A stretch of DNA of 64,000 nucleotides, from assembly GCF_009796745.1 (NCBI RefSeq), contig NZ_CP047024.1:310001-374000 (forward strand). The letters run 5' to 3'. This DNA is from Paraglaciecola sp. L1A13 (GTDB lineage Bacteria; Pseudomonadota; Gammaproteobacteria; Enterobacterales; Alteromonadaceae). Within the stretch, counting starts at the first letter, position 1; every line of letters begins with the position of its first letter. The notes below the pieces were generated by a model that did not search any database, was not told the DNA's origin, and saw only the letters and a list, made by a program, of their open reading frames with translations. The translations under genes were made by a program, and so were the position numbers. Shown one piece after another: positions 31,880 to 43,347 of this stretch.

Positions 31880-32265
31880 AATAATATATTTTACTTTCTT
31901 CGTTTTCATCCATGAAGCTTGGTTCCAACCAAATCATCGCGGTTTGTCGTTCTTCTTTCTCGACGTGACGTTCAACTACCTCTCGTCACTTCGCGACTAA
32001 TCATTAGCCAGCTAAGCTAAAAGCGCTTCATTTTGTGAGCGCTGATTCTAATGAAATACAGCGTTTTTTCCACTTTTATTTAGTTTTATTTTTGTCGATA
32101 TATGTTTAATGTCGAGTTTTCTGGTTTATCGAACCTAGGTTACAAAATGAAGTTGTCATATTGGCGTGATATTCCCTTCTAATCATAAATTAACAGAATA
32201 AATTGGTTATGTGATAACATAACGCTTTTAATGTGGGGCTTTATTTTAACTTTTTGGGCGAGATT
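31880..32265. other. Intergenic region between tRNA-Arg and phoX-like gene
   Basis: 386 bp. GCCAGCTAAGCTAAAAGCGC near 32010-32029 resembles the D-arm of a minus-strand tRNA, but no full cloverleaf can be drawn. An in-frame ATG at 32233 exists but lacks a ribosome site. Otherwise AT-rich promoter-like DNA. Confidence 0.5.
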
Positions 32266-33633
32266 ATGATTTCTAGAAGACAGTTTACTTTGGGCGCAAG
32301 TGCGTTAGCGTTTGGTGGTCTTACGGCGAGTTATTTTGGCAAAGTAAATGCAGCTTCTTTAGCTAAAAATACTCATGGGTTTGGTCCTCTTGTCGCCGAT
32401 CCTCAGAATATTTTGGATTTGCCCGATGGGTTTGATTATCAGGTTATTTCACAATTGGGTGATGAAATGGCGGATGGTCTTACCGTACCAGATAGAGCTG
32501 ATGGCATGGGTTGTTTCGCGTTAGACGAGGAGCGTGTTGTGCTTATTCGTAATCATGAGTTGCACCCAAGGGACTTAATCAAGGCTGAGTCGAGTATTAA
32601 ACAACATAAGAGTCAGTTAGCTTACGACCAAAACAGTGATGGTGTGGCCTTACCTGGGGGAACCAGTAAGATGGTTTACAACCTGAAAACCCAAACGTTG
32701 GAAGAGCAGTTTTTGACCTTAGTTGGCACAGTGCGAAATTGTGCCGGTGGCGTGACGCCGTGGAATAGTTGGTTGACCTGTGAAGAGTCGGTACTTAAAG
32801 CGGGTACTGGTGTATCGAAATCCCATGGTTATATTTTTGAAGTGCCAGCCTCTGCTCAAGGGTTAATCAAACCACAACCCTTAACCGCCATGGGGCGCTT
32901 TAATCATGAAGCGGCAGCGGTAGACCCACGAACGGGGATTGTGTACTTAACGGAAGACCGTGGCGACAGCTTGTTTTATCGCTTCATTCCTCATCAACCA
33001 GGGAAATTAGCCCTAGGCGGTCAACTACAGGCCTTAGTGATTAAAGGCACTAAAGGTTATGACACACGTAATTGGGTAGCGGATCACATGCCGGTACAAG
33101 AGTGGGTGGATGCCCAGTGGATAAACCTAGATAGCCCTGAAAGCCCTGAAGATGACCTGCGTGATCGCGGTTTTAAAGACGGGGCAGCATTATTCGCTCG
33201 GGGTGAGGGGATCCATTGGGGTGACAATGAATTGTATTTTTGTTGTACCAATGGCGGTGCAAAGCAACTCGGGCAAATTATGCGCTATAAGCCGTCTTCT
33301 TTTGAAGGGCAACCAGAAGAAGCGAGTTCATCTGGAAAGCTACAATTGTTTTTACAAAGTGAAGATGAATCCCTGTACAACTTTGGTGATAACTTAACGG
33401 TTACGCCTTACGGTCATCTTTTAGTGTGTGAAGACCAGTACACCGACGTGGTTAATAATCATTTGCGCGGAGTTACCCCGCAAGGTGAAGCTTATAATTT
33501 TGCGCGTTTGAATATGCAAACGGAATTGGCTGGTGCATGTTTCTCACCAGATGGCTCAGTCTTATTCGTGAACCTCTATTCACCGACTAGAACCCTAGCC
33601 ATAAGGGGACCATGGGATACGTTTGCTGGTTAA
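32266..33633 (+). CDS. PhoX-family (DUF839) alkaline phosphatase-like protein, Tat-exported
   Basis: 455 residues from the ATG at 32266. This start places the Tat motif SRRQFTLGA right at the N-terminus, followed by a hydrophobic stretch (ALAFGGLTASYFG). An upstream in-frame ATG (32233) would add 11 unlikely residues. The body shows PhoX-type segments: VLIRNHELHPRD, CAGGVTPWNSWLTCEE, GRFNHEAAAVDPRTGIVYLTEDR, and CEDQYTDV. PhoX enzymes are periplasmic calcium/iron phosphomonoesterases induced by phosphate starvation. It stands alone; no clear Pho box was identified. The subfamily with this size may have other substrates. Confidence 0.85.
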   Translation: MISRRQFTLGASALAFGGLTASYFGKVNAASLAKNTHGFGPLVADPQNILDLPDGFDYQVISQLGDEMADGLTVPDRADGMGCFALDEERVVLIRNHELHPRDLIKAESSIKQHKSQLAYDQNSDGVALPGGTSKMVYNLKTQTLEEQFLTLVGTVRNCAGGVTPWNSWLTCEESVLKAGTGVSKSHGYIFEVPASAQGLIKPQPLTAMGRFNHEAAAVDPRTGIVYLTEDRGDSLFYRFIPHQPGKLALGGQLQALVIKGTKGYDTRNWVADHMPVQEWVDAQWINLDSPESPEDDLRDRGFKDGAALFARGEGIHWGDNELYFCCTNGGAKQLGQIMRYKPSSFEGQPEEASSSGKLQLFLQSEDESLYNFGDNLTVTPYGHLLVCEDQYTDVVNNHLRGVTPQGEAYNFARLNMQTELAGACFSPDGSVLFVNLYSPTRTLAIRGPWDTFAG

Positions 33634-33793: not shown

Positions 33794-35008
33794 TTACGTC
33801 ATAGGATGGCGGCGTACTAATTCGAGTACGTCAAAACAAGCGCCCATGGTGTGATAGTCGGTTTTGCCAATGGGGCTTTTGAGCTGGTCAATTTTTTGGT
33901 TGTCGTGGGTCAGTATTCTAAACCAGGCGCCGTATTGATGATCGACCATATGCTGCCAAGAGTACTGCCAAATTTTGTCGTACCATTGCTGATAAACAGC
34001 GTCACCGGTGTGGTGATGTAAGTAGGCTGCACAGCACATAGATTCCGCTTGAACCCAGAAGTATTTTTCATTGTCGCAAATGCTCATGTCTGGGGCGAAA
34101 CCATAGAATATACCACCGTGTTCTTTGTCCCATGCGACTGCTAATGATTGGTCAAATAGGGCTTTGGCGCGCTGAATTAACCACGGGCGTTGGTCGTGCT
34201 TGGCAATGAATAATAGTAACTTGGCCCATTCTGTTTGGTGACCAGGTTGAAATCCCCAAGGACGAAACAGATTTTTCGGGTCGTCTTTGTTGTACTCAAG
34301 GTCGACTTGCCAATTGAGATCGTAATGTTCCCAAATTAAACCGCCCATTAGCGCCGCTTGTTGATTGGTCATCTTGTCTGCTAAGGCGATAGCGCGATCA
34401 AGAAAGCGACGTTCGTTACTGGCTTCATAGGCCGCTATTAACGCTTCACAGGTGTGCATATTGGCATTTTGACCGCGATAGTTATCACATACACTGAAAT
34501 CGGCATTGCATTGGTCTTTGTAAAGGCCTGCGCTTGCATCCCAGAAGTGGGTTTCCATGGTGTCGAACGTGTCACTTAGGTATTCGCGCGCTTCTTCTAA
34601 GCCTGCGCGCAACGCCCAGCTGTAAGCGAGGATCACGAACGCAAAGCCATAACAGTGATTGGTTTGATCTTTTACGCTGACAACGCCCTCTTGCACGTCT
34701 ATTAGCCAGTTATAACCGCCCGTTTCGGGTATGTAATGAGCGCTGCGAATAAATGCAATACCAGACTTTACCCGTGCTAGATATTTGGCTTCGCCGAATT
34801 CTTGATAGGCACGGGCATAGTTAAAGACAAAACGGGTTGAGCTCACTAGGTGGCGGGTGCCCTTGTCGTACACATCGCCGTTGTCTAGGAAGTTTTGATA
34901 GAAGCCGCCATGGGGGTCATCTACGTTGGCTTCGTAAAACTTGAGCGTGTCGCTTATATGGTCAAGCAGAAACGTAGGGCTGCTAAAATGTGGTGTGCTG
35001 TTTGTCAT
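33794..35008 (-). CDS. AGE-family mannose isomerase / 2-epimerase
   Basis: 404 residues, the normal length for the N-acylglucosamine 2-epimerase (alpha6/alpha6 barrel) family. Conserved active-site segments: RHLVSSTRFVFNYARAYQ, GFQPGHQTEWAKLLL with its catalytic His, KYFWVQAESMCC, and DYHTMGACFDVLELVRR with the second His. The family includes D-mannose isomerase, mannose 2-epimerase and cellobiose 2-epimerase. It lies 19 bp after the GH63 gene in a two-gene operon. If GH63 releases mannose, this enzyme would turn it into fructose or glucose. Exact specificity cannot be read; a free-hexose role is favoured by the context. Confidence 0.82.
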   Translation of the reverse strand: MTNSTPHFSSPTFLLDHISDTLKFYEANVDDPHGGFYQNFLDNGDVYDKGTRHLVSSTRFVFNYARAYQEFGEAKYLARVKSGIAFIRSAHYIPETGGYNWLIDVQEGVVSVKDQTNHCYGFAFVILAYSWALRAGLEEAREYLSDTFDTMETHFWDASAGLYKDQCNADFSVCDNYRGQNANMHTCEALIAAYEASNERRFLDRAIALADKMTNQQAALMGGLIWEHYDLNWQVDLEYNKDDPKNLFRPWGFQPGHQTEWAKLLLFIAKHDQRPWLIQRAKALFDQSLAVAWDKEHGGIFYGFAPDMSICDNEKYFWVQAESMCCAAYLHHHTGDAVYQQWYDKIWQYSWQHMVDHQYGAWFRILTHDNQKIDQLKSPIGKTDYHTMGACFDVLELVRRHPMT

Positions 35009-35027
35009 CTTAATCTCCTGACGTTAC

Positions 35028-36326
35028 TTAAAGTAACCAATGCAACGCAATAGCTGCGGTCCACGAGAAGTCTTTACCACCACAACCTGCACCCGTTTCA
35101 GGGTTGAAGTATTCGTAGTAACCAGACAAATCGACTAATGCGCGACAGTCGCTCCGTAGTTTATCAGCGGTGTCTTGAAAGCCTTCACTTTCAAAGCCTA
35201 GGGCTATCATCCAGTTGATGTGTAACCAGATAGGCCCACGCCAGTAACGTTGTGGCTCGTAACGACTTTCTTCTGGGTGAGTAGAGGCGATGCAGTATTG
35301 ACTCGCAGCGTTCCACTGTTTGGCCTTGGTGTTTAAGATTTCTTTTTGCTGCGCGTCAGCTAAGCCTGCAAATAAAGTCAGCATACCGGCTGACGTACGC
35401 ACTTTACATAAGGTGTCTGTTAGTACGTTGCGGCAATAGAAGTATTGAGACTCAGGGCACCATAATGTTGAAATCGCGCTTTGCGTAAGCTCAATACGCT
35501 GAGCTAATACATCTAAGCGTTTGTCTTTAATGCCTAATGTTTCACCCAAAGCGAGTATATCTTTACTGCCTTTGTGCAATATAGCGATGATGGCAATGTC
35601 GTTTACCTTGTAAGGGCACTCATTGAAGATGACTTCGCTGTCGAATTTATGCTTCTTAAAGAAGTCGACCAAAAACAGAAAACGGTCGTATTCACTTTTA
35701 TGCGGACGTTGCGATGAATCAACATGGCCAAGGTCACGACGTTCATATTCCCAATCTACACAAGGTACCGCTGCTAGAGCTTCATCCCACGCTGGGCTGT
35801 TGTCCATGCCGGATTCCCAAGGGTGGTAACTAACGACTAAACCCGTATTGAGTGGATCCCGCTCTTTATACCACCAAAGGTGGTAGTCAACTAAGTTAGA
35901 AAATAATGATTCGGCTTTACTGCGCGCTAAGGCTTTATCGTCAGCTGTGTCGAGCATATCTTTGATGACACTTGCCACCACGGGAGGCTGTGAAATAGAC
36001 GTACTTTTTACCCGTTTATCTGAGCCCCAAATATCTGGACCCGGGAAATAAGTCGTGGAGTCTTGATGAAACAAGATGTGCGGCACCATGCCGTTATCCC
36101 ACTGACCGTCAAACAATACTTCCAATTCTTGCCATGCACGGGGTTCGTCGAAGTGTTTCCAACCTAAGGCGGTAATAGCAGAGTCCCAGTTCCACTGGAA
36201 TGGATACAAGCCATGGGTAGGCACAGTGTACCCACCAAGATCATTCGCAATCAGTGTCTCTTTGGCTTTTTCTATTAATGCAGCAGTATTTTCTGAAACA
36301 TCTTTTCTATTAACATCATAAGTCAT
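35028..36326 (-). CDS. GH63-family glycosidase, predicted mannosyl/glucosylglycerate hydrolase
   Basis: 432 residues from the ATG at 36326; an in-frame ATG at 36431 would add a basic, non-homologous 35 residues. No signal peptide, so cytosolic. It is an (alpha/alpha)6 enzyme with PFQWNWDSAITALGW near the N-terminus, YHPWESGMDNSPAWD, RYWRGPIWLHINW and GKDFSWTAAIAL, which are motifs of the small GH63 proteins that hydrolyse mannosylglycerate or glucosylglycerate (Thermus MgH, Mycolicibacterium GgH). The acidic residues in WNWDSA and the E/D in WESGMDNS are likely catalytic or substrate-binding. The glycerate 2-kinase in the divergent operon strongly supports a glycerate-releasing substrate. Hexose identity is open. 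Confidence 0.8.
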   Translation of the reverse strand: MTYDVNRKDVSENTAALIEKAKETLIANDLGGYTVPTHGLYPFQWNWDSAITALGWKHFDEPRAWQELEVLFDGQWDNGMVPHILFHQDSTTYFPGPDIWGSDKRVKSTSISQPPVVASVIKDMLDTADDKALARSKAESLFSNLVDYHLWWYKERDPLNTGLVVSYHPWESGMDNSPAWDEALAAVPCVDWEYERRDLGHVDSSQRPHKSEYDRFLFLVDFFKKHKFDSEVIFNECPYKVNDIAIIAILHKGSKDILALGETLGIKDKRLDVLAQRIELTQSAISTLWCPESQYFYCRNVLTDTLCKVRTSAGMLTLFAGLADAQQKEILNTKAKQWNAASQYCIASTHPEESRYEPQRYWRGPIWLHINWMIALGFESEGFQDTADKLRSDCRALVDLSGYYEYFNPETGAGCGGKDFSWTAAIALHWLL

Positions 36327-36442
36327 AATGGGTGCTCTTTTTGGTTTATTAGCCGACAAATGAATCTTAAAGCACTCATAATGGGTTGTAAATGTTTTTT
36401 TTGTGTGTTTAAATTTGATTTGTAGTAACAAATAAATAACAT

Positions 36443-36455
36443 AACGTTAAACGTT
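36443..36455. promoter_or_regulatory. Candidate operator in the divergent GH63/TonB-receptor promoter
   Basis: AACGTTAAACGTT: two palindromic AACGTT words around one base, giving overall dyad symmetry. It lies 55 bp before the receptor ATG (36511) and 117 bp before the GH63 ATG. A ROK regulator gene closes the locus, so this is the best candidate for its site, though no second copy was found. Confidence 0.4.
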
Positions 36456-36510
36456 CGCATCATTTATGACGAACACACTATTGACCATCTTTAAGAGATT
36501 GGAGAACACC

Positions 36511-38958
36511 ATGAAAATGACACCTATTGCCTGTGCAGTATCGATACTTTTTGCTGCACCGTTATTTGCCCAAGAAGAAAAGACTGAGAAACCAAAGGCT
36601 GATGAATATGAAAACATCATTGTTACCGGTTCAAGCGTTGCGCGTACAGAAGCAGATACACCTGCTAAAACAACGCTGATTGGGAAAGACCAAATTGCGA
36701 ACACAGGTTTTTCAAGTCAGGCAGACATATTGATGAGTGTTCCCGGTATTAAAGTGGAAGGTGGTGGTGGCGAAGTGGCAACCAACGCATTTGTAAGGGG
36801 TTTACCTTCAGGAGGCCAGTTCCAGTTTACGCCCCTTAATTACGATGGCATGCCTGCATTTCAGTCTGGGTTAACCTCTTCTGCACAGGATGTTTATTAC
36901 CGCCCTGATATAGGTATAGAAAGAGTGGAATATGTTGGTGGTGGTGTATCTAACTTGTTCGGCCCTGGTTCAGTGGCAGGCATAATCAACTATATTTCTC
37001 GTAAAGGAAGTGACGACCCAGAAAGTACCGTTCAAGTAGAACTTGCCGAAGACGGTCGCATTAGAACAGATTTTTTCAATAGTGGTGCGTTATCAAGCGA
37101 TGACAATATTTACTATGCTATCTCTGGTTTCTACCGTTACGACGAGGGCCCTCTAGATACTGGCCTACCCACTAAAGGTTACCAACTTAGAGGTAATATA
37201 CGCAAAGAATTTGATGATGGTCATATCGCATTCCATGGTCAAATGATTAACGACAAAGTGCAATTCTTCTTACCATTGCCTTTAGAGGGCGCATCGCGTG
37301 ACCGATTAACCGGTAATGACGGTGAAACCGTTTATGTTGCCCAGACGGTAGCTGCCGCTGACCTAAGTTACCCCACTGCGGATGGTACCTACGAGTCGCC
37401 TATTCGTGACGGTGTATCTACAGAAGGTGGTTCATTTGGTGTTGATTTTGAAAAAGAATTAACAGACACATGGCGCTTAAGCGGTAAAGCGAAAGCCGCA
37501 AGTTATGATCATCAATTCAATCTATTCCTTGACGGAGACGGTATCGCCAATACGCCTGAGCCTCAAAGTGGTTATGTTACCAACGCAGGCAGAACGGTAA
37601 ATGGTGATTTGCTCAGTTCATTGGGCACGGCCAATTACACGTGGTCTGAAACAGGTAACGCCTTACCTGACGATTATTTAGTCTTCGGTAACCGTTTATT
37701 GGATCGCCAAAGAGACGGTGACTTTTTCAGCACTGAGTTTAACGTAACAGGTGAACTAGAAGCAGGCGGCTTTGACCATACTGTGAATATTGGTACGTTT
37801 TTCATTAACGCCTCGCAAATGGACTACAACATTATATCCAGTTACTTAGCTGATTTTAGTAACGGTAAGAATGCACGTTTAGTTGACCTGTCTTTTACTA
37901 ACGAAGCAGGTGAAACGGTTCAGTATTCTAAAAATGGGGTTGTAGGGCCAGGTACGAGTTATACCAACAAAGACCTAACCAGTAAACGGATCGCATTTTA
38001 TGTCACAGACCAAATGGAAAACGACAATTGGGCGTTTGATGTGGGTATGCGTGTAGAGCGCGCTGAAGGCACCACTAAGTCAGAAGGCAGTGAAGTGGTT
38101 GTAGTATCTGATGACCCGTCATTAGCATCTAACCTGCAAGTGAATACTACAGGTAACGGTCGTTTCACTTATGGTGAAGTCGGTACCACAGAAGCTGCTT
38201 TCTCTGGTGCGCTGTTATACAAAATGGATGACAGCGACATGAACTTGTACGCTAACGCATCAAAGGGTTATTTCTTCCCACAAATCAGAAGTATCACCTT
38301 TAACGACAACGGTGAGCCGCAAAGCTATGAAGGCGAAGATATTACCCTTGGCGCAATAGGTGTGAAGTACTTCCCGAAAGACTTATATATAGATGCATCA
38401 CTGTTTATTGCTAATCTAGATAATCGTCGCTCTGTTGATTTCGAAAATGATGGTTCAGGCGGTTTACTTGAAGTGGTTAAGCAGCAATCTACTGAAACCA
38501 CCGGTGCTGAAATTATTTCACGCTGGAATGTATCTGACGAAATCACGCTAGAAGGTAATATTACTTATCAAGATGCTGAATTTAGCGAAGGGGCTAATGT
38601 GGGTAAACAACCCAGAAGACAGCCTGAATTTACCGGCAACGCAGCGGTTTCTTATAACAACGGCTTTGTTGATGCACGTTTAGGCGTGAGTTACTTCGGT
38701 GATTCTTACGCCAATGACGACAACTCGGTTGAATTAGATAGCCACACTATTGCCACCTTTAATGCGGGTTATTCTTGGGAGCTTAATAACGACCAAGAAA
38801 TAAGACTGGGCATTAGCGTATGGAATCTATTTGACAGTGAAGGAATTACGGAAGGTTCTCCACGTCAAGGAAATAGCCAAGTTTCTGGTGGTGAGTTCTT
38901 TATCGGACGTCCCGTATTGCCTCGTCGTGTGAGCCTAACCGCTCGGTATGATTTTTAA
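36511..38958 (+). CDS. TonB-dependent receptor, predicted sugar-glycerate uptake
   Basis: 815 residues from the ATG at 36511, chosen for GGAG 7 bp upstream and for the signal peptide it creates (MKMTPIACAVSILFAAPLFA). The ORF also has an ATG at 36466 without a ribosome site. A TonB-box-like YENIIVTGSS follows, then the plug (ADILMSVPGIKVEGGGGEVA, RVEYVGGGVSNLFGPGSVAG) and a barrel ending LTARYDF. Of the Fe-siderophore-like receptor group by length, but gene context (symporter, kinase, ROK, GH63) indicates a carbohydrate ligand. It would bring the glycoside across the outer membrane; TonB-ExbBD is supplied from elsewhere. Confidence 0.85.
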   Translation: MKMTPIACAVSILFAAPLFAQEEKTEKPKADEYENIIVTGSSVARTEADTPAKTTLIGKDQIANTGFSSQADILMSVPGIKVEGGGGEVATNAFVRGLPSGGQFQFTPLNYDGMPAFQSGLTSSAQDVYYRPDIGIERVEYVGGGVSNLFGPGSVAGIINYISRKGSDDPESTVQVELAEDGRIRTDFFNSGALSSDDNIYYAISGFYRYDEGPLDTGLPTKGYQLRGNIRKEFDDGHIAFHGQMINDKVQFFLPLPLEGASRDRLTGNDGETVYVAQTVAAADLSYPTADGTYESPIRDGVSTEGGSFGVDFEKELTDTWRLSGKAKAASYDHQFNLFLDGDGIANTPEPQSGYVTNAGRTVNGDLLSSLGTANYTWSETGNALPDDYLVFGNRLLDRQRDGDFFSTEFNVTGELEAGGFDHTVNIGTFFINASQMDYNIISSYLADFSNGKNARLVDLSFTNEAGETVQYSKNGVVGPGTSYTNKDLTSKRIAFYVTDQMENDNWAFDVGMRVERAEGTTKSEGSEVVVVSDDPSLASNLQVNTTGNGRFTYGEVGTTEAAFSGALLYKMDDSDMNLYANASKGYFFPQIRSITFNDNGEPQSYEGEDITLGAIGVKYFPKDLYIDASLFIANLDNRRSVDFENDGSGGLLEVVKQQSTETTGAEIISRWNVSDEITLEGNITYQDAEFSEGANVGKQPRRQPEFTGNAAVSYNNGFVDARLGVSYFGDSYANDDNSVELDSHTIATFNAGYSWELNNDQEIRLGISVWNLFDSEGITEGSPRQGNSQVSGGEFFIGRPVLPRRVSLTARYDF

Positions 38959-39001
38959 GTGAGTGTATTGGTGTCTGCTTGCGCCAATTAGGTTGAGTAG
39001 C

Positions 39002-39031
39002 TTACCCATTGGAAAAGATCCCAGTGGGTAA
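39002..39031 (+). terminator. Stem-loop between receptor and symporter genes
   Basis: TTACCCATTGG (39002-39012) pairs with CCAGTGGGTAA (39021-39031), 11 bp with one G-T pair, 8-nt loop. No strong T-run follows on the plus strand, so it may act as a partial terminator or as an mRNA-stability element that sets higher receptor than symporter levels. Confidence 0.45.
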
Positions 39032-39103
39032 CTATTCACCGTTCTTTTAATTTAGTAGCTTGAACGGTATGGTTTTAGCTCGTGCAGATATGTGAAGAGA
39101 ATT

Positions 39104-40684
39104 ATGAATACACTAGATTTTTTAATTGTTGCATTGTATTTGGTGGCGCTTTTAGTCATGGGATTTATGCTGCGTGAACAGACAAATAAAAGTGACTATT
39201 TTTTGGGTGGGAAAAGTCTAGGATGGAAGCCCTTGGCGTTGTCGGTCATGGCTACTCAGCTTTCTGCTATTAGTTTTATTTCTGCCCCCGCTTTTGTAGG
39301 GTTGCGTGAAGGTGGTGGCTTGCAGTGGCTTTCCTACGAATTAGGGGTGCCGTTAGCTATGCTGCTGGTGTTATCTACTATTTTACCTAAGTTATACCGC
39401 GCAGGGATCGTCAGTATTTATGATTACCTTGAAACCCGTTTTGGCCGTTCTACGCGGGTATTGATCAGTATTGTTTTTCAATTTAGTCGGGCGTTTGCGA
39501 CCGGCATTATGATTTATGCGGTATCCCTTATTCTGCAAGGCACCATGGGTATCGAAGCATGGCAAGCTATCTTGTTAACCGGTGTGATAACCGTACTTTA
39601 TTCACTGCAAGGCGGCATGAAGGCGGTCGTCTATGGCGATGCCATTCAGATGATTATCATTGTATTAGGTACAATCGCCTGTATTGGGTACGGTCTTTAC
39701 TACCTAGGTGGCGTTGACACATTCCTAGCTAATGTAGATCCGAACCGCTTGCAAGCGATTAAGTTTGACTCATACGGCTTTAGCGGTGACGGCTTTGGCT
39801 TTTGGCCAATGATTTTTGGTGGCGTAGTATTGTATGCGTCATATTATGGTTGCGACCAAACTCAGGCGCAACGAGCACTATCTGCAAAAGATCCAAAAAA
39901 CCTACGGTATATGATTTTAGCTAACGGAGTTATTCGTTTCCCCATTACTATTTTGTACTGCTTATCCGGTTTAATTGTAGGCACGCTAGCCATGTCAGAG
40001 CCAAGCTTTATGGCAAAAATCCCAGCAGATAATCCTGATTGGATGATGCCCATGTTCATCCTTGACTACTTACCTCATGGCTTAATTGGCTTATTGGTTG
40101 TGGCTATTTTGGCTGCTGCTATGTCGTCATTAAGCTCTGCAATCAACTCTCTGTCTGCGGTGACCATCGAAGACTACTGCCGCATTACCAACAAAGAAGT
40201 GAGCCAAGAAAGTTATTTGAAATTGGCAAAATATATGGGCCTGGGCTGGGGGGCTGTCACTCTAATATTGTCGCTGTATGCAGGCAATATTGCGCCAACC
40301 ATTATTGAAGCTATCAATAAAGTCGGCTCATTGTTTTATGGACCAATCCTAGCGGTCTTCTTGCTTGCAGTGCTAACGAAAAGCACATCAAGCCTGCACG
40401 TCAATATTGGGTTAGTCAGCGGTGTTTTGTTTAACTTATTAATATCGTTTATCGCTCCCGAGATCTTCTGGTTTTGGTGGAACTTCATTGGTTTTGTTGT
40501 GACGGTTATGATGGCAGTGCTAATGAGTAAAATTAAGCCCTTCACTTATCAACCTAACGATGAGGAATTGGCCGCGGCGCCTGTCTCTTTGTCCATTCTT
40601 ACCGTTAAGGATGTGGTGATATTGCTTAGCATGTTCGGTGCGATGATTGCTTTCTGTTTGTATATTCCAACGGCGTTTGTTTAA
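39104..40684 (+). CDS. Sodium/solute symporter (SSS family, SGLT-like)
   Basis: 526 residues from the ATG at 39104 (GAAGAGA just upstream); a GTG at 39092 is in frame. About 13-14 membrane helices. SSS features: SDYFLGGKSLGW after helix 1, ATQLSAISFISAPAFVG, GGMKAVVYGDAIQM and YYGCDQTQAQRALSAKDPKNLRY. The Q/D-rich CDQTQAQR motif is typical of the sugar and sialate branch. It would carry the intact glycoside or its hexose across the inner membrane with Na+, a common arrangement in marine bacteria. It is second in the plus-strand operon, 8 bp before glycerate kinase. Confidence 0.88.
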   Translation: MNTLDFLIVALYLVALLVMGFMLREQTNKSDYFLGGKSLGWKPLALSVMATQLSAISFISAPAFVGLREGGGLQWLSYELGVPLAMLLVLSTILPKLYRAGIVSIYDYLETRFGRSTRVLISIVFQFSRAFATGIMIYAVSLILQGTMGIEAWQAILLTGVITVLYSLQGGMKAVVYGDAIQMIIIVLGTIACIGYGLYYLGGVDTFLANVDPNRLQAIKFDSYGFSGDGFGFWPMIFGGVVLYASYYGCDQTQAQRALSAKDPKNLRYMILANGVIRFPITILYCLSGLIVGTLAMSEPSFMAKIPADNPDWMMPMFILDYLPHGLIGLLVVAILAAAMSSLSSAINSLSAVTIEDYCRITNKEVSQESYLKLAKYMGLGWGAVTLILSLYAGNIAPTIIEAINKVGSLFYGPILAVFLLAVLTKSTSSLHVNIGLVSGVLFNLLISFIAPEIFWFWWNFIGFVVTVMMAVLMSKIKPFTYQPNDEELAAAPVSLSILTVKDVVILLSMFGAMIAFCLYIPTAFV

Positions 40685-40692
40685 GGTTTTTT

Positions 40693-41931
40693 ATGAAATA
40701 TCAGGCTTTTTTACGTGATTTATTTGATATCGCTGTGGCTGCTTGTCAGCCTAGTGCTTGTATGGCCCAGCAGTTAAGTAAGCTAGATACCAGCAATGGC
40801 ATATGTGTGGTCGGGGCGGGTAAAGCGGCTGCTGAAATGGCTGCTGAGGTACATAAAACCTTGGGTGATAAATGCTACGGCGCTGTCGTAACCCGCTACG
40901 GGTACGAAAGCGCAGGGGATACCGGCAAAATAGAGGTGCTGACGGCGAACCACCCTACGCCAGATGACAACAGTTTACTCGCCGGTACAAAACTACTGGA
41001 GTTGGTGAAAAATACGCCAGCAACGACACCTATTTTATTTTTAATTTCAGGTGGTGGCTCATCACTTATGTGCTTACCCGATGACGATGTGCCGTTTGCT
41101 GACAAGCAGCAGCTCAATCAGTTTCTACTCAGAAGCGGCGCCAGTATCGATGAAATTAATACCGTGCGTAAACAGTTGTCGAAGGTGAAAGGCGGCAGAT
41201 TGGCTGAGGCCGCTAAATCAAGGCACGTGACCTTGATGATTTCTGATGTGGTGGGGGACAACGCCGCTGATATCGCCTCTGGACCAACCATTGCTGATCC
41301 CTCAACCAAGGCTCAGGCGTTGGCTATTTTGCAAAAGTACAATTGGTCTCCTGTGGGCAGTATTGCTAATTACTTGGCAAAGCCTGAAGCTGCGCCAAAG
41401 CACACTGCCCCAAGTGAATATCATATTGTGGCGAACGCACAGCATGCGATTGATGCCGCCATTAGCGTTGCCCAGCAGCAAGGGTGGCAAACCCAAGTAT
41501 TAGGTTATGACATTCAAGGTGAAGCCAGAGATGTTGCTAAGATACACGCTAAACAAGCCTTGGCGTGCAAGGCCAACGGTCAGCGCATGATGTTGTTCTC
41601 AGGGGGCGAGCTAACGGTAACGGTGGGCAAAGAATACGGTGACGGTGGGCCTAATCAAGAATATTTAATGGCATTAGCCCTTGAGCTAGATGGCGCGAAA
41701 GGGATCTCTGCGCTGGCTTGTGATACCGATGGCGTGGATGGTAGCAAAGATGTCGCGGGAGCTTATATTGATGAAACCACATTGCCTCGAGCGTTATCAG
41801 CAGGTGTGAGCGCAAGCGAACTATTGGCTACTCACAATAGTCATAAGTTCTTTGGCGCTATAAATGACTTAGTTATCACTGGCCCAACGAATACTAATGT
41901 TAATGATTTCAGAGCAATTATTATTGAATAG
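40693..41931 (+). CDS. Glycerate 2-kinase (MOFRL family)
   Basis: 412 residues. ATP-dependent glycerate to 2-phosphoglycerate. The N-terminal domain has GICVVGAGKAAAEMA, LTANHPTPDDNSL, FLISGGGSSLMCLP and INTVRKQLSKVKGGRLA. The C-terminal MOFRL domain has LFSGGELTVTV then GDGGPNQEYLMALAL, and ACDTDGVDGS, all diagnostic of GckA/TtuD-type kinases. It is placed 8 bp after the symporter, making it part of the sugar-glycerate operon. Its product enters lower glycolysis directly. A lone glycerate kinase could serve glyoxylate or tartrate routes, but none of those genes is nearby. Confidence 0.92.
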   Translation: MKYQAFLRDLFDIAVAACQPSACMAQQLSKLDTSNGICVVGAGKAAAEMAAEVHKTLGDKCYGAVVTRYGYESAGDTGKIEVLTANHPTPDDNSLLAGTKLLELVKNTPATTPILFLISGGGSSLMCLPDDDVPFADKQQLNQFLLRSGASIDEINTVRKQLSKVKGGRLAEAAKSRHVTLMISDVVGDNAADIASGPTIADPSTKAQALAILQKYNWSPVGSIANYLAKPEAAPKHTAPSEYHIVANAQHAIDAAISVAQQQGWQTQVLGYDIQGEARDVAKIHAKQALACKANGQRMMLFSGGELTVTVGKEYGDGGPNQEYLMALALELDGAKGISALACDTDGVDGSKDVAGAYIDETTLPRALSAGVSASELLATHNSHKFFGAINDLVITGPTNTNVNDFRAIIIE

Positions 41932-42003
41932 CCTTTAGCTGACGACAAATAGCAGCTTGCTTCGGGCTGGTGGTTAAGCTTATATTCGCCAGCTTACTAT
42001 TAG

Positions 42004-42032
42004 CCTTAAGCCAGCAAACGCCAGACTTAAGG
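42004..42032 (+). terminator. Hairpin with T-rich tail after glycerate kinase
   Basis: CCTTAAG (42004-42010) pairs with CTTAAGG (42026-42032), followed by TTTTGTTTCTTGTTCT. Stem of 7 AT-rich pairs and a 15-nt loop make it modest. It would separate the catabolic genes from the regulator gene. Confidence 0.45.
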
Positions 42033-42098
42033 TTTTGTTTCTTGTTCTATTTTCACGATTCAAATAGGCTATAGCGTTTTAAGGTAGATGTATTACAG

Positions 42099-43256
42099 AT
42101 GTTTTCAATCGACAACAGTCAATATTTACGTTCAGGGTTTACGTTAGGGAAAGGCAATAAGCTTTTTCAAGATATTGAGCGTGATATTATCAAGATTGTT
42201 TTCTGGGAACGACGCGTTACCCAAAGTCAGCTCGTATCTGCTACCAAAATTCCCCAGCAAACGGTGTCTCGCTTATTAAAAGGCCTCACCCAGTCTAAGG
42301 TGCTGCGTCAAACCGAAGATATGATCCCTAATCCTAAAGGCAAACCGGGTTTTGCTATCGAGTTGAATCCAGACTATGCCTATACCTTTGGCGTGTCGAT
42401 ATTGCTCGATGCTGTCGGTGTAGCGGTAATGGACTTTGCTGGTAATGTTATTGCCACGAATATGTGTGAAATGGACGACATGAGTATTGCTCATGTACTT
42501 GAAGCGATTGACACTTTGATAACTGAGCTGTGTGAAACGGCTAAATTAGACGAAACTCGAGTGCTGGGTATTGGCGTGGGTATTTCCGGTTTCTTTAGTT
42601 CAATGGATGGCAAGATGAACACCCACCATATGTTAGAGGAGTGGGCGCAAGTCGATATAGTCGAAATAATATCTAGCCATTTCACACTTCCGACTTGGGT
42701 GGTAAATGATGGTACCGCTGGCGCAGCGGGTGAGGGTGTTGCTGGGGTCGGTCGCCAGTATAAGAACTTTGTATATTTATTTGTTTCATCGGCATTTGGT
42801 GGCGGGATCGTTACCAATTCTGAGGTATTACGGGGTACTTATGGTAATGCTGGTGAGTTGGGCGATATGTTACCCACTAAAATATACGCTCATCCAAATT
42901 TAGAACTGCTAAAACGTATCTTGAAGAAAAACGGTGTGAATTTCAGCTCTATTTATAATTTGAACGAGGAGTTTGATCCCAACTGGCCTGGCGTCGAAGA
43001 ATGGATATTCAAAGTGCAGGATTCTTTCGACTTGGTTGCCACCTGTTGCTCTGCCTTACTTGATGCCGAGGCAATTATACTTGGGGGGCATATTCCTAAA
43101 GAATTAGCCGAGATGGTGATACCGCGGATTGACGTATACGCTCAATTCAGGCGCGGGGCTAAGCGTCCTATGCCAAAAATAGTGGTGTCAGGCGTCGAGA
43201 AGTTTCCGGTTGCCATTGGTGCGGCCACGATACCACTGCGAGAACTTTGCTTGTAA
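42099..43256 (+). CDS. ROK-family transcriptional regulator
   Basis: 385 residues. An N-terminal winged helix (about 20-75, VFWERRVTQSQLVSATKIPQ, QTVSRLLKGLTQSKVLRQ) precedes a ROK sugar-kinase fold (ILGIGVGISGFF, VVNDGTAGAAGEGVAGVG, FGGGIVTNSEVLRGTYGNAGELG). The usual ROK zinc motif CxCGxxGCxE after GNAGELG is absent; the sequence goes to MLPTKIYAHPNLELLKR instead. This points to a regulator with an altered site, not an active kinase. It would sense the sugar or a derivative and control the divergent promoters at 36327-36510. It is followed by a strong terminator. Confidence 0.88.
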   Translation: MFSIDNSQYLRSGFTLGKGNKLFQDIERDIIKIVFWERRVTQSQLVSATKIPQQTVSRLLKGLTQSKVLRQTEDMIPNPKGKPGFAIELNPDYAYTFGVSILLDAVGVAVMDFAGNVIATNMCEMDDMSIAHVLEAIDTLITELCETAKLDETRVLGIGVGISGFFSSMDGKMNTHHMLEEWAQVDIVEIISSHFTLPTWVVNDGTAGAAGEGVAGVGRQYKNFVYLFVSSAFGGGIVTNSEVLRGTYGNAGELGDMLPTKIYAHPNLELLKRILKKNGVNFSSIYNLNEEFDPNWPGVEEWIFKVQDSFDLVATCCSALLDAEAIILGGHIPKELAEMVIPRIDVYAQFRRGAKRPMPKIVVSGVEKFPVAIGAATIPLRELCL

Positions 43257-43283
43257 AGATTTACATGAATAACGGCTAATATA

Positions 43284-43321
43284 AAAAAACGCGTATTGAT
43301 TCATTCAATACGCGTTTTTTT
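43284..43321. terminator. Bidirectional terminator between ROK and PDE genes
   Basis: ACGCGTATTGA (43289-43299) pairs with TCAATACGCGT (43305-43315) around TTCAT, with a run of A before and of T after. It is well shaped for both converging transcripts. Confidence 0.9.
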
Positions 43322-43347
43322 ACATTTATCGTTAACCCAAAAGAAGA

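Follow-up and report, generated by a model that had tools for sequence, protein, structure and literature searches.

Which solute do six adjacent genes of Paraglaciecola sp. L1A13 serve, and by what route would it be used? The genes lie at positions 33794-43256 of the window, that is, the whole 64,000-nucleotide stretch analysed here (contig NZ_CP047024.1, positions 310,001 to 374,000), and encode a TonB-dependent outer-membrane receptor, a sodium/solute symporter, a hydrolase of glycoside hydrolase family 63 (GH63), a MOFRL-type glycerate 2-kinase, a protein of the AGE superfamily and a ROK-family regulator. A first-pass annotation, made from the DNA letters alone, had named these families and had read the set as a system for uptake and catabolism of mannosylglycerate (digeneaside) or glucosylglycerate. 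All six open reading frames (ORFs) were found to be open over this interval, and the Pfam families agree with those named. The uptake-and-catabolism reading is well supported as far as sequence can carry it, and the evidence leans to mannosylglycerate over glucosylglycerate as the main substrate. In our judgement the six genes probably make up a self-contained scavenging system for hexosylglycerate from outside the cell, above all mannosylglycerate, with the pathway and the ROK control proposed below.

The hydrolase protein lies far above the curated cut-off of PF22422 (324 vs 27 bits), with weak trehalase and GH63 C-terminal Pfam matches besides, and it is the one PF22422 match of the source genome, a single contig of 4.97 Mb. 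Its nearest solved structure is TTHA0978 (PDB 2z07/4wva; 411 bits, 45% identity), followed by the glucosylglycerate hydrolase of Mycolicibacterium hassiacum (MhGgH; about 205 bits, 32% identity), and E. coli YgjK matches it in a short C-terminal stretch only. PDB 4wva is the mannosylglycerate hydrolase (MgH) of Thermus thermophilus HB8 (PMC6608630). Nineteen active-site and ligand positions of MhGgH, taken from the same source, were compared, and the window hydrolase was found to be identical to Thermus MgH at all 19 and to MhGgH at 18. The catalytic residues D182 and E419 and the glycerate contacts Y36, W40, Y88, R216 and Y375 (MhGgH numbering) are all retained in the window hydrolase, and the same catalytic pair and five direct glycerate contacts are identical in 80 of 80 related loci, the variable positions among 83 aligned rows being H78, F89 and Q434. 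The YgjK control carries E for D182 and lacks Y36, Y88 and R216, three of the five glycerate contacts, while W40 and Y375 are present (24% identity, approximate alignment). The first-pass annotation had set these contacts as the test of its assignment of the hydrolase to the mannosyl/glucosylglycerate type, and the comparison came out in its favour. An attempt to read the sugar from the hydrolase residues gave no discriminating position; the one contact that differs is Q434 of MhGgH, where the window hydrolase, Thermus MgH and each of the 80 loci have F. Judged by eye, the hydrolase is devoid of an export signal. The names glycogen debranching enzyme and trehalase, which some sources give to these proteins, are to be distrusted. 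A further protein, P0056 (752 aa), is an MGH1-type hydrolase fused to a PfkB sugar kinase, whose kinase half is closest to the PfkB type of these loci.

Related loci were found with the hydrolase alone as query, and the best 80 of at least 580 confirmed relatives were kept. The same six-gene set had been suggested as something to look for in other genomes, and it was found together in 17 of the 80 loci, from Paraglaciecola, Pseudoalteromonas, Rheinheimera, Alteromonas, Pseudocolwellia, a Kangiellaceae and a Pseudomonadales genome. Among named relatives, Paraglaciecola sp. 20A4 comes closest at this locus, the two hydrolases being 99% identical. Since the gene order differs in two loci (L014, L016) and the flanking genes differ from genus to genus, it is the block that is conserved rather than the whole region. 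Across the 80 loci the orthologue cluster of the receptor is present in 35 and that of the symporter in 28. An importer-type cluster of some kind, be it a receptor, a symporter, an MFS protein or an ABC part, occurs somewhere in the stretch examined in 75; none was found within the stretches examined of L028, L029, L034, L039 and L047. Sphingomonad- and Caulobacterales-type loci combine the hydrolase with a receptor and a MOFRL kinase, some also with an MFS or ROK-kinase gene. Six Pseudohongiella-type loci (L019, L023-L027) hold receptor, symporter, ROK and hydrolase genes without AGE or MOFRL kinase, and a dehydrogenase resembling tartronate-semialdehyde reductase adjoins in five of these six. 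Ten other loci (L020, L021, L022, L030, L033, L035, L037, L040, L061, L079) carry LacI, a solute-binding protein, two permeases, an ATPase and the hydrolase, their families being assigned through cluster representatives; these are candidate ABC importers for hexosylglycerates. Pfam scans of recurrent, probably antisense ORFs in G+C-rich loci gave no match.

The linkage was also followed in whole genomes, the overlaps being counted by eye from the listed rows. Of 148 order-level genomes, 14 have AGE and 2 the hydrolase (E 1e-60), and in both of these 2 AGE lies within about 1 kb of the hydrolase gene. At the family level 196 genomes were covered: 15 have the hydrolase and 45 AGE (both at E 1e-60), and 17 have the kinase (E 1e-40). 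The kinase accompanies the hydrolase in 13 of the 15 positive genomes, always within about 5 kb (absent from G221 and G327), and is found in 4 of the 181 hydrolase-negative ones; the Fisher p of 3.6e-15 is only a guide, related genomes not being independent and kinship being uncorrected. AGE is present in 14 of the 15, within about 1 kb in 12, about 10 kb away in G327 and on another contig in G251, and none was found in G221. It also occurs in 31 of the 181 hydrolase-negative genomes, so that AGE is not special to the locus.

Which hexose would be released is suggested by the type of the AGE protein and by its company. Against the PDB its best scores are with 3gt5 (524 bits) and 5x32 (467 bits, residues 4-397), far ahead of YihS, at 154 at best, and of epimerases, at 84 or less. 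Structure 5x32 is the D-mannose isomerase of Marinomonas mediterranea (PMC7762179). The first-pass name 'mannose isomerase/epimerase' holds in its resemblance to this enzyme but not at the NCBIfam D-mannose isomerase equivalog cut-off (NF051846, 225 of 600 bits), so the protein is best called mannose isomerase-like and is predicted to convert mannose to fructose. The 5x32 isomerase is not known to act on glucose. Four hydrolase-free AGE loci, chosen from the listed genome places holding AGE relatives, were examined (L101-L104), and GH92 alpha-mannosidase genes were present in all four, one in L101 and three each in L102-L104, where the ORFs of 770-800 aa proved on scanning to be GH92 proteins. 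PfkB and MFS genes accompany them in L101 and L104 and a LacI-like match in L102-L104, and the four are candidate alpha-mannoside loci within the same bacterial family. Moreover, eight of the 80 loci, all of them among the 17 six-gene loci, have a PfkB gene set between those of the hydrolase and AGE; the best NCBIfam match of its representative in L013 is fructokinase (216 of 450 bits). A route from mannose through fructose to fructose-6-phosphate fits the AGE type, the GH92 neighbours and the PfkB genes alike.

In the proposed pathway, the TonB receptor and the sodium symporter would carry the solute into the cytoplasm, where the GH63 hydrolase would cut mannosylglycerate to mannose and D-glycerate. 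The AGE enzyme would convert mannose to fructose, and a PfkB fructokinase, whose gene is in the locus in eight relatives and would be elsewhere in this genome, may form fructose-6-phosphate. The MOFRL kinase, which carries both family domains (DUF4147 and MOFRL, Pfam), would phosphorylate glycerate to 2-phosphoglycerate. The hydrolase and AGE genes run leftward with 19 bp between them, and the receptor, symporter, kinase and ROK genes run rightward, so the locus is made of two divergent units and is not a single operon. The ROK protein, the only ROK match of the source genome at E 0.001, would repress both units through two palindromes 53 bp apart.

These palindromes are two copies of TCATAATGGGT in the divergent promoter region of the window. 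Their consensus in relatives, AACCCAnnnTGGGTT, was derived from a palindrome count, from exact words common to few loci, and was then checked in the remaining loci. Eighteen loci of the same type were compared, that of the window among them: the best site never departs from this consensus by more than 2 mismatches, and in 5 loci it is exact; the partner site, 52 or 53 bp off, has at most 3 mismatches in 12 of the 18, 4 in four (L004, L005, L007, L008), 5 in L006 and 6 in L003, the locus of Paraglaciecola mesophila KMM 241. In the differently arranged L014, which stands outside this set, a site with 2 mismatches lies upstream of the ROK gene. A comparable pair (2 + 4 mismatches) arose in 0 of 3000 first-order resamplings of the window region. 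Over 28 loci, 70 sites with at most 2 mismatches were counted vs 17.8 in resamplings (five per locus), an excess which is partly due to a repeated site within the hydrolase gene. A pattern search of the whole genome gave 7 rows at 6 places vs 3 in the control, and only the pair at the locus is spaced by 53 bp; a palindromic match elsewhere (L113) lies, by eye, inside an AraC-type gene. An exact copy was also seen between the ROK and receptor genes of the alphaproteobacterium Kordiimonas marina (L074:7031-7045). The two palindromes are candidate operators, to which the ROK protein may bind as a repressor.

A number of observations weigh against mannosylglycerate as the main substrate, or against parts of the scheme. 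The hydrolase residues leave the sugar undecided, because the MgH enzymes of Thermus and Selaginella treat both hexosylglycerates about alike, being about equally active on them (PMC6608630), and the glycerate contacts are the same in loci with and without AGE. Besides the AGE protein, two further proteins fall under their NCBIfam equivalog cut-offs, namely the hydrolase for glucosylglycerate hydrolase (342 of 550 bits) and the kinase (NF041176, 226 of 550 bits). No PfkB or fructokinase gene is present in the locus of the window, and L083, the best fructokinase candidate of the genome (198 of 450 bits), shares only 30-35% identity with the PfkB type of the loci. On the hydrolase tree, in which MhGgH sits on a very long branch, YgjK is left out and L054 (an AGE relative about 5 kb from the hydrolase) is unlabelled for AGE, there is no single AGE clade; AGE is scattered, with 7 changes of which at least 6 are forced. 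L062 and G251, both without this AGE, fall in the group of the window: no AGE was found in the 10 kb examined of L062, where an unrelated MgtE gene comes next, and in G251 (L098:10505-12839) the mannose isomerase is replaced by a distant AGE protein and a hexokinase (PF00349/PF03727). As for the regulation, the operator motif is derived from the same loci in which it is scored, and no site with at most 2 mismatches was found upstream in the six Pseudohongiella-type loci, L018 and L069 (Emcibacter). A mixed or a glucosylglycerate diet is possible.

The explanation which survives best among the alternatives, though we consider it unlikely, is that glucosylglycerate from picocyanobacteria or other bacteria is the main substrate and mannosylglycerate a side substrate, AGE isomerising glucose or being a passenger. 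In its favour, the major compatible solutes of Prochlorococcus NATL2A are sucrose and glucosylglycerate (PMC11631117), and MhGgH prefers glucosylglycerate (PMC6608630). The best NCBIfam equivalog of the hydrolase is named for glucosylglycerate, although its score lies under the cut-off, and AGE is missing from the six Pseudohongiella-type loci, which do have genes for receptor, symporter, ROK protein and hydrolase. Against these points stand the AGE type, which points to mannose, and a separate operon of the genome. This operon lies 2.1 Mb from the locus, at about 2451945-2456728 (L117:2945-7728). Its synthase is GpgS-like (370 of 700 bits), and its GpgP is a phosphatase of the type acting on mannosyl-3-phosphoglycerate (398 bits, over a cut-off of 362). 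The other two products are a GH13 protein that groups with the sucrose/glucosylglycerol phosphorylases and a kinase-like protein whose matches to P-loop kinases are weak. The GH13 protein is presumably a glucosylglycerate phosphorylase, and glucosylglycerate therefore probably has its own route already.

Two loci bear further on this choice. In L018 (544-11248) and L100 (3063-16071) relatives of the GH13 protein (40% and 65% identity to the operon protein, respectively) and of the kinase-like protein (39% and 48%) stand alongside hydrolase, AGE, receptor, symporter and ROK genes, and the MOFRL kinase is absent. This gene content ties the importers to hexosylglycerates independently of the name of the hydrolase. 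The presence of both a phosphorylase-like gene and the hydrolase suggests different substrates, since two enzymes for one would be redundant, unlike a phosphorylase for the glucoside next to a hydrolase for the mannoside, and this again speaks against glucosylglycerate as the main substrate of the hydrolase; the two are possible two-branch hexosylglycerate loci. With the mannosylglycerate reading of the locus, a wider picture can be drawn, which we rate as evenly poised between true and false: marine gammaproteobacteria may run two hexosylglycerate economies, one that makes and recycles their own glucosylglycerate via the phosphorylase operon and the other for algal mannosylglycerate via the dedicated locus under a two-site ROK switch, the two being fused in L018 and L100, which would eat both by phosphorolysis of the glucoside and hydrolysis of the mannoside.

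It is highly improbable that the hydrolase recycles the cell's own glucosylglycerate, with the transporters recovering leaked solute, in the manner of mycobacteria; the M. hassiacum enzyme has been linked to the use of its own glucosylglycerate after nitrogen starvation (PMC6608630). A GpgS-like gene does occur in 14 of the 15 hydrolase-positive genomes vs 107 of all 196 family genomes (Fisher p 0.002, kinship uncorrected), but 93 of these 107 are without a hydrolase match, so that turnover of the own solute does not need the hydrolase, and the GpgS operon here has phosphorylase-like and kinase-like genes of its own. Recycling via a mannosyl-3-phosphoglycerate synthase was rejected, as no PF09488 match was found in the genome. 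Hardly credible is another alpha-mannoside or alpha-glucoside with a carboxylate aglycone, for although transporter specificity is unreadable from sequence and the weak trehalase and GH63 C-terminal matches reflect a broad superfamily, the conserved glycerate contacts, the glycerate kinase linkage and the loci with relatives of the glucosylglycerate operon all oppose it.

For mannosylglycerate as the main substrate, a red-algal source is supported only indirectly, through the locus of Paraglaciecola hydrolytica. Digeneaside is formed by most Ceramiales, where its osmotic role is minor (PMC8523428). In P. hydrolytica (L009) a GH29 and a GH2 gene come directly after the six genes, and the agarolytic part of an approximately 167 kb red-algal cluster described for this species contains GH29 and GH63 genes not obviously involved in polysaccharide hydrolysis, with an agarolytic GH2 near upstream (PMC5943477). 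The L009 locus appears to include that GH63, the match being by gene families and not by locus tags.

The first-pass suggestion of a new catabolic system could not be upheld, since import of mannosylglycerate by MngA, with growth on this solute, is on record for E. coli (PMC8490865), and digeneaside degradation has been named among the characterised traits of Zobellia galactanivorans, with homologues in Maribacter (a 2021 paper, PMC8072126). Import and growth, described for E. coli, are predicted here; the E. coli Mng importer belongs to the phosphotransferase system (PTS), whereas the present locus has a TonB receptor and a Na+ symporter, GH63 acting on the free solute, an AGE isomerase and a ROK regulator. 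The Mng system also comprises MngB and MngR, and its enzyme is of family GH38. No PTS importer or GH38 was found by Pfam among the six genes and their two neighbours. The Zobellia and Maribacter genes concern the same red-algal solute, with predicted use by marine bacteria, but are flavobacterial, and digeneaside has been named as a possible substrate of flavobacterial polysaccharide utilization loci (PULs; PMC6298971). No SusD was found among the eight genes scanned by Pfam (the six and two neighbours), so the SusC/SusD pair of a Bacteroidota-type PUL is absent there. The Thermus enzyme (TTHA0978, PDB 2z07, 4wva-c) shares all 19 compared residues, yet is 45% identical; the M. hassiacum enzyme shares family, catalytic residues and glycerate contacts, but its Q434 is F here. 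The Shewanella mannoside pathway (manI, manK, manP, omp-Man, manR; PMC2996990) also serves mannosides, with manI, manK, permeases, regulators and a receptor in the outer membrane, whereas no hexosylglycerate hydrolase or glycerate kinase is given for it in the parts of that source consulted.

Each enzyme family is known already, and growth on mannosylglycerate is known in E. coli with a different importer. This gene set was not found in the open literature searched, a search outside which most subscription papers and supplementary files fall. What seems to be undescribed there is the assembly in gammaproteobacteria, the two-site operator, and the separation from or fusion with the glucosylglycerate operon.

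The features of the locus are collected in Table 1. The hydrolase start is placed at the ATG at 36326, giving 432 aa, and the mechanical ORF opens at a TTG at 36431. For the receptor the likely start is 36511, with GGAG upstream of that start. A PhoX-type alkaline phosphatase gene at 32233-33633, convergent with the AGE gene, bounds the locus on the left. In the window 13 terminator-like hairpins were counted vs 10.0 expected in shuffles; the stem behind the ROK gene is the longest, with 18 pairs, the next having 8.

Table 1. Predicted genes and sites of the hexosylglycerate locus (window positions).
Feature	Position	Strand	Basis
AGE-superfamily D-mannose isomerase-like protein, 404 aa	33794..35008	-	PF07221 (GlcNAc_2-epim) 349 bits
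MGH1-type GH63 hydrolase, 432 aa, predicted mannosylglycerate (possibly also glucosylglycerate) hydrolase	35028..36326	-	PF22422 324 bits
Candidate operator site 2 (CACCCATTATGACTT), overlapping hydrolase start codon	36320..36334	-	
Candidate operator site 1 (AACCCATTATGAGTG), 53 bp from site 2; AACCCAnnnTGGGTT in relatives	36373..36387	-	
TonB-dependent outer-membrane receptor	36466..38958	+	PF07715 (Plug) 53 bits
SSF sodium/solute symporter, predicted inner-membrane importer	39092..40684	+	PF00474 145 bits; TIGR00813 224 bits, cut-off 184
MOFRL-type glycerate 2-kinase	40693..41931	+	PF13660 (DUF4147) 247 bits; PF05161 (MOFRL) 115 bits; PDB 2b8n 'glycerate kinase, putative' 248 bits
ROK-family transcriptional regulator	42099..43256	+	PF00480 79 bits; MarR_2 24 bits, under its cut-off 27
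Terminator-like hairpin, 18 pairs and T tail, 3' of ROK gene	43282..43322	+	

This study has outlined a concrete gene set in several marine gammaproteobacterial genera, and the combination may serve as a marker in metagenomes. For the GH63 that had stayed unexplained in the red-algal cluster of P. hydrolytica (PMC5943477), it also suggests a likely function. Although hexosylglycerates of red algae and microbes are common solutes, little is known of the bacteria that consume them, and those carrying this locus would probably be among the consumers.

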